NCBI GenBank assembly: GCA_937981555.1
Contig: CALJOK010000019.1
Span: forward strand, 1 to 64,000
Reading direction: 5' to 3'
DNA: 64,000 bases
DNA from: an uncultured Saprospiraceae bacterium
Lineage (GTDB): Bacteria; Bacteroidota; Bacteroidia; Chitinophagales; Saprospiraceae
The translations under genes were made by a program, and so were the position numbers. Under the pieces are notes generated by a model. It was not told where the DNA came from and ran no database searches. It saw nothing but the letters and a program-made list of their open reading frames with translations. Positions 38,909 through 43,570 of this stretch are shown piece after piece. Position 1 is the first letter of the stretch, and the number at the start of each line of letters is the position of its first letter.

Positions 38909-39586
38909 TTAAAATCTCAGATCTTCTATGTGTACACCAGGGAATTTCTTTTCATTAAAAATAAAATCGGCTGCCGTATATTTTTTATTCGCTTTAAAAT
39001 CTTGAATTGCTAAAGTAAACCTCGAACCATCTTTTGAGAAAACTTTGATTCGTTTTACCACAGAAGTTTTCTTTTCAATAGTCATTCTGATTTTTGAATA
39101 TTCAGAATCTGATTCCAATGGCTTAAATTCAATTTGTAAAAGAGGTACTCCTTTTTCAACAATGGCATTAGTCAAGGCATATAAATATTTTCCTTTTTTA
39201 TAAAAATTATAAAAGTCTTGTGGCGCCATCATCTCATCATCACCTTCTTCTGGTGGATCATTGAGCTGGACTTCCTTATTTTGTTTATTGTGTACCCAAA
39301 AGTTTTTACCATCACAAATCATGGAATAAGAACTTAAATCCACATTGTATTTTTTACCTTGTTGCTTTAATGTTCCAGTTTGCTTATCGACAGGTTCTTC
39401 AGGGATTTCAATTTCTAAAGAAAAGGTAGCTTCGATACTTTTATAAGCCTCATACTTTTTACTCACTTTATCGAGCACTCTTTGCGCTTCTGGATCTACA
39501 TCTTGCACTTTCGTAAAGTCCTTTTTTTGAGCAAAACTAGTTGCCAAAAAGAAGGTACTCATCATTATTGCCATTATATATTTCAT
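38909..39586 (-). CDS. LolA-like outer-membrane lipoprotein carrier protein
   Basis: 225 aa from the ATG at 39586 (MKYIMAIMMSTFFLATSFAQ, cleavable signal). Then a LolA/LolB-type open beta-barrel: AQRVLDKVSKKYEAYKSIEATFSLEI, GTLKQQGKKYNVDLSSYSMICDGKNFWVHNKQNKEVQL, and the late DGSRFTLAIQDFKANKKYTAADFIFN. It would shuttle lipoproteins across the periplasm. The family is divergent in Bacteroidota, so I give no symbol; a lipoprotein-sorting relative is the main alternative. Confidence 0.82.
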   Translation of the reverse strand: MKYIMAIMMSTFFLATSFAQKKDFTKVQDVDPEAQRVLDKVSKKYEAYKSIEATFSLEIEIPEEPVDKQTGTLKQQGKKYNVDLSSYSMICDGKNFWVHNKQNKEVQLNDPPEEGDDEMMAPQDFYNFYKKGKYLYALTNAIVEKGVPLLQIEFKPLESDSEYSKIRMTIEKKTSVVKRIKVFSKDGSRFTLAIQDFKANKKYTAADFIFNEKKFPGVHIEDLRF

Positions 39587-39757
39587 ATCAATCATGTTTT
39601 CTTTTTTCTAAAAATAAAATTCTCGTTTGGGTATAAATGCTAATTCGTCCTTATGACGTAAAATTAATGCAATAATAACGCTTTTAGCAAGTCATAGTTT
39701 ATTAAAGTGAAGTTAAAGTTTCGTTATTCCAAAACGCTCATTTTGAAAAAGGTATTC

Positions 39758-40081: not shown

Positions 40082-40391
40082 GTTTTTTTCTTTAGAGGTA
40101 GGTCTTTTGAATGTTATCCTGTCTTTATTTTATGTTAAGTTGTTGTAAGATTTTCAAAAAAGTATTTCGATTTTTTGATTCTTCATTGAAATGAAATTTA
40201 TACTTAGAAATGCTAACTACTTAGCAACCAATTAAAAAAAATGTATATCAAGTAGGGGGAAGGGGCTCATTTTGTATCTTGTAGATGTAAATTACATTTT
40301 AATAAAAGGTAACATTAATATTAAATCACAGATAAAGGAATTGTATATTTGACATTTAAAAATAACAAATCCAAATTAAAAAATAGACTTG
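40082..40391. other. divergent intergenic region upstream of the DUF4956 operon
   Basis: A 310-nt gene-free region. The only supported element is a -7-like TATATTTG at 40344-40351 (+), 41 nt before the ATG at 40392. No strong hairpin was seen. Confidence 0.5.
40344..40351 (+). promoter_or_regulatory. candidate -7 element for the DUF4956 operon
   Basis: TATATTTG matches TAnnTTTG. No clear -33 box. Confidence 0.45.
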
Positions 40392-41084
40392 ATGGTTGAT
40401 TTTTTTAGCATTCAGAACAGTACCGAAAATCCAACTTTACTGCTCATTATTTATACCGTTTTATTTTCCTTCTTGCTATCCTCTTTGATTGCGTTTACCT
40501 ATGAAAAAACTTCGCGGGACGTAGCCACTCCAATTTATTTTATTCAAGCAATGGTGTTGTTGTCAATTGTTACGGCAACGGTGATGCAAGCGATAGGTGA
40601 TAGTGTGGCGCGAGGATTAGGAATGTTAGGAGCTTTGGCGGTGATTCGATTTAGAACGACTTTGCGAAATCCGAGAAACATTGTTTTTATGTTTTCTTCT
40701 TTGGCGGTTGGAATTGCTTGCGGCGTTTACGCATTTGTTATAGCAATAGTCGGAACCGTTGGATTTTGTATTACAGCTTTCGCTTTGAGATTAACTCCTT
40801 TTAGTCAAGAAAATAATTTGGTGGGTACGTTACGATTTGAGATGCCAGAAGATGCTGCTAGGTTAAAAGAAATAAGAAAGATTTTAAAAAAATATTCTGA
40901 ACGATTTGCACTGAAACGATATAAAACTTATAGTAATCCTGAAAAAGAAAGTCTGATCGAATACGAGTATAGATTGAAATTAAAAAAAGAGGATGAAGGA
41001 CTTCATTTGGCAAAAATTCTTCGACAAATTCCAGAAGTGAGTTCCGTTCGTTTAGCTTTTGACGATGCTGCGGAAATCATTTAA
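40392..41084 (+). CDS. DUF4956 membrane protein
   Basis: 230 aa from the ATG at 40392; the track start at 40389 is TTG. At least three membrane segments (about 15-35, 50-68, 90-130), including the hallmark GLGMLGALAVIRFRTTLRNPRNIVFMFSSLAVGIACG. A cytosolic C-terminal domain (about 140-230) resembles a ferredoxin-like regulatory fold. Known DUF4956 proteins sit next to VTC/CYTH or CotH genes in many bacteria, and their function is unproven. Here the gene leads an operon with an adaptor and an outer-membrane channel protein. Confidence 0.85.
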   Translation: MVDFFSIQNSTENPTLLLIIYTVLFSFLLSSLIAFTYEKTSRDVATPIYFIQAMVLLSIVTATVMQAIGDSVARGLGMLGALAVIRFRTTLRNPRNIVFMFSSLAVGIACGVYAFVIAIVGTVGFCITAFALRLTPFSQENNLVGTLRFEMPEDAARLKEIRKILKKYSERFALKRYKTYSNPEKESLIEYEYRLKLKKEDEGLHLAKILRQIPEVSSVRLAFDDAAEII

Positions 41085-41104
41085 ACTGATATTAATTACG
41101 GAAA

Positions 41105-42184
41105 ATGAAAAAATTTAATTTAGTATATCTGCTGTTTTTTTTAGTCATTGGTTTGATTTGGCAAATCAATACACGATATGGAAAACATACGGTGATGTTT
41201 TACGGATTTGCAGAAACGAAGGAAACAGAAATTAATTTGGATCATCCTGTAGAGGTTAATCGACTGTTGGTGACGCCTGGTCAAAAAGTAAAAAAAGGAG
41301 AATTATTGGCAGAAGTAACTCACTCTACTTTTGGTTTGAAATTGAATAATATTTCTCACTCGATGGATGAGTTGCGATTGGAAGAAAGTATTTGGAAAGC
41401 AGATATTCGTTCTTCCATCAGTAGATTAGAAGCTCAAAAAGTAGCTAAGGAAAGTGAATTGAATTCTCAAATCCGACAATTGGAAACGGAGATAGAAGTG
41501 AATCGCTCGTTGCTCGAAGGATTAAAAAGTATTGATGTTACTGAAGCAACAGTAGATCCAAGAAAAACAAAAATTGCTAGTTTAAAAGAAGAACTTGAAT
41601 TGGTGGTAAAACCTTTGGAAGTACAAATCGCTAGACTGAACGAAGAATTGAATTCTCCCAATAGTCCAAAACGAATTCAAATTAGAAAATTAAAGGAAGA
41701 CCAAAAATTCTATACCGAGGAAAAAGATGGTCTCTCCATCTATGCTCCGAAGGATGGATTGATTGGAAATATTTATTGCAAGGAAAAAGAAAATATATCC
41801 TCCTTCAATACTTTAATTTCTTTTTATGAAGAAAATCCAACGATGGTGAAAGGTTATGTTCATGAAAATTTAATTCTTGAGGTAGCGGTAGGAGATACGT
41901 TGGAAGCAATTTCTACTCAGCATCCTGAGCATAAGTGCCAAGGAGTGATTACTGGTTTAGGTTCTCGAATTGTTGAAATTCCAGATCGTCTTAGAAAGAA
42001 TCCAGACTTAAAAACTTATGGACGGGAAGTATTAATTTCAATTCCTCCAAGTAACTTTTTTTTACAAAAAGAAAAAGTGATTTTAAATTTGTTGAAAGCA
42101 ACGTCACGACCTGCTAGTATCTTTGATTCCATCTTGGATTCGAGTGAGGAGAAAACCAATAAAGTAATTACAGGAAAAGGATGA
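41105..42184 (+). CDS. HlyD-like periplasmic adaptor protein
   Basis: 359 aa: one N-terminal membrane anchor (about 5-21), a lipoyl half-motif VNRLLVTPGQKVKKGELLAEV (about 52-72), a long coiled-coil hairpin (about 80-210, EKESELNSQIRQLETEIEVN type), a second lipoyl half LSIYAPKDGLIGNI, and a beta-barrel end. This is the membrane-fusion layout of type I secretion and efflux systems. It lies 20 nt after the DUF4956 gene and overlaps the TolC-like gene by 4 nt. The partner transporter is missing from the operon. Confidence 0.85.
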   Translation: MKKFNLVYLLFFLVIGLIWQINTRYGKHTVMFYGFAETKETEINLDHPVEVNRLLVTPGQKVKKGELLAEVTHSTFGLKLNNISHSMDELRLEESIWKADIRSSISRLEAQKVAKESELNSQIRQLETEIEVNRSLLEGLKSIDVTEATVDPRKTKIASLKEELELVVKPLEVQIARLNEELNSPNSPKRIQIRKLKEDQKFYTEEKDGLSIYAPKDGLIGNIYCKEKENISSFNTLISFYEENPTMVKGYVHENLILEVAVGDTLEAISTQHPEHKCQGVITGLGSRIVEIPDRLRKNPDLKTYGREVLISIPPSNFFLQKEKVILNLLKATSRPASIFDSILDSSEEKTNKVITGKG

Positions 42185-43503
42185 TGAGAAAAATTGAATA
42201 TCGAATATTGAACGCTGGCGCGAAGGAATTGCGGATAGAGAAGTTTTTACAATGGAAAATCCGGATACTTTTTAGTGTTGTTTTTCTTTTTGTAAATGTA
42301 GTGTTATTAAATGCACAGAATACACTTTCCTCTTCTGAGATTTTAGCTTCGGCTAAACAACAATATGTTTTGGGACTTCAACAACAGCGAGTTGATTTTT
42401 TAAAAAACTCCGCTCATAAATTACCACTAGTTGATGAAATGGAATTCAGGACGGAGACGAATGATTTCTTATTGAGAGAGCAACAATATGTACTTCGAGG
42501 TAGATTTCACACCAAAGCGCAGCAACGAGCGCATGCAGATTTTCAACAAGCAAAAATAGAATTAAACACGATCGACGAGCAACTCTTGATGCAAGATTTG
42601 TTGCGAGATAGATATGATGCAATTGTTAAGGTTTCTTATTTTGAAAAATTACTTGTTGCGAAAAAAGAACAAAAAATTTTGCTAGAAGATCGAATGACGG
42701 TTTTGAAAAAAAGTGTCAATCTACCTAAGTTTAATATTTTGGATTTGATTGATGCAGAAGATGATTTGCATCTAGCAGATCGTGATATTTTAAGATTAAA
42801 AAATGCCTTGAATTTAGCGCAGCAAAAAATATTTCGATATTCTAATGAGCGAGGATATTTAAAAACAGATGACTTGCAGTTGATTGATATGGAACAACTT
42901 ATGGAAGTTGCCCGATCACTTTCATCAGAACCTTCAACAGCACATGCTACTTTAGTGAAAAGGAATTTGAATATAAATCTAGCGGCGAAAGAGCAAGCAA
43001 TTCGAAGGACACAAGAAGAAAATACGATTGATTATTTTCAAGCTCAAATAGGAGGGACAGACGATAGGGGATTTCGACAAAATTTCTCTTTGGGAATGGG
43101 AATTACGATTCCCGTTCGAAATCGACAACAAAAAAATATCGATGAATTAGAATTTGAAAAAATAGACGAAGGACTGAAATATGAGGAGCTTAAAATTAAA
43201 CTCAAAGAACGCATGACTCAAATTCGATTGGAGATGGAAACGCAATTTGAATTATATCAATTGCTCAATCAACAATTGGAAAATAGCCAAGCGGATGAAG
43301 TCCTCGAACAATATCAAAAAGTCGCTGGTGCATCACCCATCGCGATGTTAAAATTAAAAGGAAGTCAATTCAAAAAAGAGTTGGAACAATTTAGAATTCA
43401 GCAAGATATTTATTTGTTGTATGTGGAATTGTTGGATGCTTCGGGGAAGATGATGGAGTTGCCGTTGCGGAATTATTTGATGGGGAGTTTGGAGGCGTTT
43501 TAA
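42181..43503 (+). CDS. TolC-like outer-membrane efflux protein (OEP)
   Basis: 440 aa. A hydrophobic stretch at about 29-45 ending LLNAQ is the signal peptide; it follows an odd 28-residue N-terminal extension whose DNA is part of a dispersed repeat. The mature part is helical coiled-coil of the OEP type (LDLIDAEDDLHLADRDILRLKNALNLAQQK; LGMGITIPVRNRQQKNIDELEFEK). It probably forms a trimeric outer-membrane channel docked to the adjacent adaptor. The start ATG overlaps the adaptor stop (ATGA). Confidence 0.8.
   Translation: MMRKIEYRILNAGAKELRIEKFLQWKIRILFSVVFLFVNVVLLNAQNTLSSSEILASAKQQYVLGLQQQRVDFLKNSAHKLPLVDEMEFRTETNDFLLREQQYVLRGRFHTKAQQRAHADFQQAKIELNTIDEQLLMQDLLRDRYDAIVKVSYFEKLLVAKKEQKILLEDRMTVLKKSVNLPKFNILDLIDAEDDLHLADRDILRLKNALNLAQQKIFRYSNERGYLKTDDLQLIDMEQLMEVARSLSSEPSTAHATLVKRNLNINLAAKEQAIRRTQEENTIDYFQAQIGGTDDRGFRQNFSLGMGITIPVRNRQQKNIDELEFEKIDEGLKYEELKIKLKERMTQIRLEMETQFELYQLLNQQLENSQADEVLEQYQKVAGASPIAMLKLKGSQFKKELEQFRIQQDIYLLYVELLDASGKMMELPLRNYLMGSLEAF
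42193..42213 (+). repeat. fragment of the dispersed repeat inside a coding start
   Basis: attgaatatcgaatattgaa(c) matches 19 of 21 positions of block 1 at 8331-8351. It forms codons 5-11 of the TolC-like gene. Confidence 0.55.
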
Positions 43504-43520: not shown

Positions 43521-43570
43521 AAAAAGAAAGCCCTTCTATATTTTTTAAAATCTAGAAGGGCTTTCTTTTT
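43521..43570. terminator. bidirectional terminator between convergent genes
   Basis: A perfect 17-bp inverted repeat (aaaaagaaagcccttct, 43521-43537, with its complement at 43554-43570), flanked by A/T runs, between the TolC-like (+) and S9 peptidase (-) genes. Confidence 0.92.

Follow-up and report, generated by a model that had tools for sequence, protein, structure and literature searches.

A DUF4956 operon with adaptor and TolC-like channel genes and no pump gene, and the linkage of its relatives to CotH kinases and polyphosphate enzymes

The analyzed window, a stretch of 64,000 nucleotides from an uncultured Saprospiraceae bacterium (source genome G000), contains a three-gene operon that encodes a DUF4956 membrane protein, a periplasmic adaptor and a TolC-like outer-membrane factor (OMF). 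The following features were identified.

40392-41084, plus strand: DUF4956 gene (ORF with ATG at 40392, 230 aa)
40596-40670, plus strand: conserved re-entrant segment of DUF4956, residues 69-93, GDSxARGLGxLGALAIIRFRT (alignment and model)
41105-42184, plus strand: periplasmic adaptor gene (ORF, 359 aa)
41942-42079, plus strand: basic C-terminal motif of the adaptor, residues 280-325, GLGSRIVEIPxRLRKxPxxKTYGREV...FLQKEKV (strongly conserved in an alignment of 67 sequences)
42181-43503, plus strand: TolC-like OMF gene (ORF, 440 aa)
43521-43570, no strand assigned: strong, long hairpin terminator, A/T-flanked on both sides (-26.7 kcal/mol, z = -7.9)

A TTG start listed at 40389 lies one codon 5' of the DUF4956 ATG. 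The adaptor and OMF genes overlap by 4 bp, whereas a gap of 20 bp separates DUF4956 from the adaptor gene, so that the coupled starts reported in a preliminary description of this locus hold for the second junction and not for the first. The terminator sits between the operon and a convergent S9 peptidase gene. All neighbors of the operon are on the opposite strand, namely a LolA-like gene and a small membrane-like ORF upstream and the S9 peptidase gene downstream. The LolA-like gene (38909-39595), divergent from the triad, is retained next to it within the genus (L073-L075).

The DUF4956 protein matches the Pfam family PF16316 with 47.1 bits (cut-off 30.6), and the same family is matched by all 75 of its relatives. 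In the AlphaFold2 model (pLDDT 82), four long transmembrane (TM) helices and the re-entrant segment are followed by a C-terminal domain with the order beta-alpha-beta-beta-alpha-beta, which is ACT/ferredoxin-like. Two arginines of the re-entrant segment, R86 and R88, are invariant across 75 aligned sequences. A Foldseek search with the C-terminal domain retrieved ACT/ferredoxin-like structures exclusively, including the C-domain of MgtC (7qa5), all of them with E>1e-3. An hhalign comparison of the DUF4956 profile with MgtC proteins reached 97.2% across 188 columns; the unrelated control gave 0.1% and a single YhiD sequence 2.1%. The window protein itself remains below the Pfam MgtC cut-off (14.6 versus 31.4 bits), and 18 of the 75 relatives reach this model at E<0.01. 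Judging from these comparisons, DUF4956 is a remote homolog of MgtC across both the TM and the ACT-like domains and is no known transporter; nor do we know of any established transporter activity of MgtC itself. Potassium-channel and other PDB sequence matches of DUF4956 were weak and were regarded as chance.

The adaptor scores under the Pfam cut-offs, with the RND_mfp, EmrA and HlyD models matching at 7e-9 to 2e-7, and a Foldseek comparison of its structural model with the PDB identified EmrA and MacA (E about 1e-14). It consists of an N-terminal TM segment (residues 6-25), a lipoyl domain, a long alpha-hairpin (76-139/152-208) and a beta-barrel. The OMF of the window is recognized by the Pfam OEP model (29.1 bits versus a cut-off of 22; 1e-6), a single-sequence match that just 16 of the 62 members of its family share. 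Since TolC was not among the matches of this family in the PDB sequence search, its profile was compared with ordinary TolC-family proteins (97.8% over 392 columns, hhalign), and by this measure the OMF represents a divergent TolC-like subfamily. Thus, of the parts of a tripartite exporter, the window contains an adaptor with its lipoyl, hairpin and barrel domains and a TolC-family channel. In Neolewinella agarilytica (L128:7797-9048) the OMF is encoded in two overlapping frames, which reflects either a genuine disruption or a sequencing error.

The third part, a transporter or pump gene, is absent from the operon, as the preliminary description had stated, and from its vicinity, and a survey of the homologous loci extends this observation. 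For about 116 loci, a few of which were counted twice, the genes up to three positions away from the triad were scanned by hydropathy and ABC motifs; these 548 genes included neither an RND-like gene nor a recurrent permease. In a Pfam scan of 145 triad neighbors, RND, ABC and MFS families were absent from the 25 commonest families displayed. The MacB-like ATPases found in four loci (L044, L098, L103 and L105) lie beyond an opposite-strand gene. A pump gene that is merely displaced in the window was rejected on the grounds that no pump recurs in these loci. It could be supposed that the operon belongs to an ordinary tripartite pump with its transporter encoded elsewhere and DUF4956 as an accessory, as the closeness of the adaptor fold to EmrA and MacA would allow; moreover, the source genome has many other TolC-family genes (26 OEP matches), and therefore other pumps probably exist in it. 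Both surveys and the separate position of the MacB-like ATPases speak against this explanation, which we consider very improbable.

The triad is complete in 73 of 80 public loci. Most of the incomplete ones are located at contig ends, and one (L142) is a solitary DUF4956 gene inside a contig. Retention of the three genes in these loci and the presence of a second full triad in the source genome argue that their association is not due to chance. Together with the ORFs, the Pfam matches and the closing terminator, they bear out the DUF4956/adaptor/outer-membrane channel operon of the preliminary description. Triads were found in Saprospiraceae, Lewinellaceae, Flavobacteriaceae and Desulfobacterota, as well as in a Balneolaceae-like group (inferred placement). 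In the latter (L240-L247) the triad is part of a conserved operon with genes that by eye resemble YihY, YceI and short-chain dehydrogenases. Some taxon labels may be binning errors, such as Thermoanaerobaculia for L113, a label that is suspect because the locus falls among Saprospiraceae in the DUF4956 tree. Genes 3' of the triad in L109:9029-10153 and L114:3273-4385 resemble, by clustering, the L113 gene assigned by Pfam to Endonuclease I.

The source genome possesses four DUF4956 genes, which belong to two full triads and two CotH-adjacent copies, one with and one without a VTC gene. The DUF4956 of the second triad (contig 91, L035:6495-9555) groups with copies linked to PPK1 (L119 and L128). 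Divergent from this triad lies a gene for a 3200-aa protein (L035:10004-19606) in which, as judged by eye, numerous repeats look cupredoxin-like and the ends PKD-like.

CotH is a Fam20C-like ATP-binding kinase (PMC12189002). Its gene is found at most two genes from the triad in 33 of the 80 loci and accounts for 40 of 270 near genes, as compared with 1 of 205 farther genes. The CotH HMM was rebuilt after Pfam annotation, the first version having missed the T9SS-type CotH; in all eight CotH neighbors from Bacteroidota that were scanned with Pfam, a lamin-tail domain is accompanied by a T9SS sorting tail. Genes for VTC polyphosphate polymerases, in these bacteria separate genes for proteins of about 210-290 aa, adjoin the triad in Desulfobacterota and a few Bacteroidota. 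In particular, CotH, DUF4956, adaptor, OMF and VTC occur together in Desulfonema magnum and other Desulfobacterota, in varying order (L230, L235 and L236), while in L237 the contig edge is reached before any CotH (L235, L236 and L237 duplicate L151, L140 and L146, respectively). A second architecture, adaptor-VTC-DUF4956, is present in about 20 loci and in many Bacteroidota (L056, L057, L059, L060, L062, L250-L257 and L264-L268); its adaptor is different but homologous, divergent, and mostly escapes Pfam. Finally, PPK1 lies 3' of the triad in L119 (Pfam), and a PPK1-like gene is near the triad in L128.

None of CotH, VTC and PPK1 is encoded beside the operon in the window; CotH and VTC are present elsewhere in the source genome and beside homologous triads. 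The DUF4956 of the window nevertheless shares ancestry with the proteins of the DUF4956-CotH-VTC module, belonging to the same Pfam family and the same tree (midpoint root). In this tree, for which only a midpoint root is available, the VTC-linked DUF4956 forms branch outside the VTC-less triads, a pattern consistent with loss of VTC in the latter. The idea that a window-type triad always requires VTC was rejected, as genomes G006 and G019 have the triad and no VTC. PPK1 encoded in trans is not discriminating, being present in 24 of 26 good genomes of the family. The source genome and its relatives have an expanded set of CotH genes, up to 22 per genome.

A further possibility is that DUF4956 is an MgtC-like regulator or sensor of CotH or polymer metabolism, with ACT as the ligand domain, and that the adaptor and channel export, together with DUF4956, a small unrelated metabolite. 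The ACT-like fold of the C-terminal domain fits such a role, MgtC is reported in work cited by PMC12345266 to bind and regulate other membrane proteins, and neither CotH nor VTC was found at the Balneolaceae-like loci L240-L247. However, almost every locus retains adaptor and OMF genes adjoining DUF4956, and the CotH/VTC linkage recurs across distant lineages; we regard this interpretation as unlikely.

The predicted location of CotH correlates with the presence of the adaptor. Beside adaptor/OMF genes, 38 of 48 CotH proteins have a T9SS tail and 8 of 48 are lipoprotein-like, whereas at loci without the adaptor only 1 of 25 has a T9SS tail and 23 of 25 have an N-terminal hydrophobic segment, which suggests an inner-membrane anchor. 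The contrast is significant (Fisher p 2e-10), although p overstates independence since the loci share ancestry and include duplicates, and it is mainly one between two DUF4956 clades. T9SS tails were called with a home-made HMM checked against Pfam for eight CotH proteins, lipoproteins by pattern and anchors by hydropathy. The source genome encodes in trans T9SS-tailed CotH proteins (L322 and L323) and a lipoprotein-like one (L328), the latter resembling by eye the CotH beside triads in L093 and L248. As T9SS-tailed CotH and other T9SS-tailed proteins often neighbor the triad, the assembly might supply CotH with an exported acceptor molecule or help T9SS cargo to mature in another way, rather than deliver a phosphoryl donor. 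This appears highly improbable, as the VTC and PPK1 links indicate phosphate polymers and the CotH proteins of Desulfobacterota have no T9SS tails.

The above analysis leads us to propose that the operon is a pump-free form of the DUF4956-CotH-VTC module, one that spans the envelope and exports a phosphate polymer or a phosphoryl donor, a reading to which we give a probability of roughly 45%. The MgtC-like inner-membrane DUF4956, the EmrA-like adaptor and the TolC-like channel would form one assembly. In the cytoplasm, a VTC-domain polymerase or PPK1 would produce the cargo, either a polymer of the polyphosphate type or a different phosphoryl donor; DUF4956 would gate it, the ACT domain acting as a regulator and the invariant arginine pair as an anion path, and the adaptor and channel would take it to the surface of the cell for use or modification by secreted CotH kinases. 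The energy for transport could come from polymer synthesis, by analogy with the yeast VTC complex, and a separate pump would therefore be unnecessary. DUF4956 would then be the common inner-membrane part, to which adaptor and OMF are added where CotH acts outside. The linkage with VTC and PPK1 is the reason for suggesting polyphosphate or a related phosphoryl donor as the cargo; our guess is that such a cargo is better supported than the metabolite or lipid export considered initially. Since CotH, VTC and PPK1 are not adjacent in the window, the role of this copy is argued from its relatives: it may act likewise, with its partners encoded at other loci.

The preliminary description had put forward DUF4956 as the inner-membrane component, or a gating subunit, of an unrecognized export system. 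The pump-free orthologous operons agree with this suggestion, and DUF4956 is favored as the inner-membrane member because it is the common part, whether or not a locus has the adaptor and channel genes, but the homology to MgtC and the links to CotH, VTC and PPK1 had not been foreseen. In its boldest form, the proposal amounts to a novel type of exporter: polyphosphate or another phosphoryl donor would pass an MgtC-like inner-membrane gate, the adaptor and the TolC-like channel to reach secreted CotH kinases, which would use it to phosphorylate surface proteins. In this form we consider the proposal rather unlikely.

It is the pump that defines tripartite exporters, and a widespread pump-free version would widen the class and give DUF4956 a role. 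By our own reasoning, it is not evident which donor a bacterial kinase could draw on once secreted; phosphoryl-donor export, if true, would explain how kinases outside the bacterium get phosphate. The link of the triad to CotH and polyphosphate enzymes would make testable both the function of VTC-CotH-DUF4956 in bacteria and the phosphate source of extracellular kinases. In the searchable full-text literature, DUF4956 is mentioned by just three papers, and we found none that brings together polyphosphate, CotH, HlyD and the outer membrane; literature searches for bacterial VTC or CotH with adaptors likewise returned nothing. The linkage of the triad to kinases and polyphosphate enzymes in related bacteria hints at a phosphate polymer or phosphate donor leaving the cell by a route not described before.

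The closest known relatives are the CotH-polyphosphate polymerase-DUF4956 genes of Gram-positive pel clusters, in which DUF4956 likewise has an MgtC-like TM domain and an ACT domain (PMC7112168, PMC12345266) and is accompanied by CotH and, in some lineages, VTC, as in relatives of the window triad. However, those genes belong to a Pel polysaccharide cluster and have no adaptor or outer-membrane channel, whereas the window triad has no adjacent CotH or VTC. By analogy, the triad could be an accessory to exopolysaccharide secretion: the cotH-PPP-DUF4956 genes adjoin pel genes (PMC7112168), Streptococcus intermedius mutated in SIR_1592 (DUF4956) or SIR_1594 (CotH) aggregates less and has altered levels of Pel (PMC12345266), and the adaptor-free locus L037 lies, as seen by eye, among exopolysaccharide-like genes. 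Yet no polysaccharide synthase recurs next to the triad, and this alternative to phosphate polymer or donor export seems decidedly improbable.

The EmrAB-TolC and MacAB-TolC systems have in common with the window operon the adaptor fold and the TolC-family channel, but contain an MFS or ABC pump in place of which the operon has a 230-aa DUF4956/MgtC-like partner. With the MgtC/SapB proteins (e.g., YhiD), DUF4956 shares the profile match over 188 columns and the order of TM domain and ACT-like C-domain; it differs from them in its score under the Pfam MgtC cut-off, its distinct core GDSxARGLGxLGALAIIRFRT and its tie to adaptor and OMF. Finally, the polymerase domain of the eukaryotic VTC polymerase/translocase (PMC10657179) is also found in related operons, though not in that of the window, and it is by analogy with this complex that we propose a translocation coupled to synthesis.
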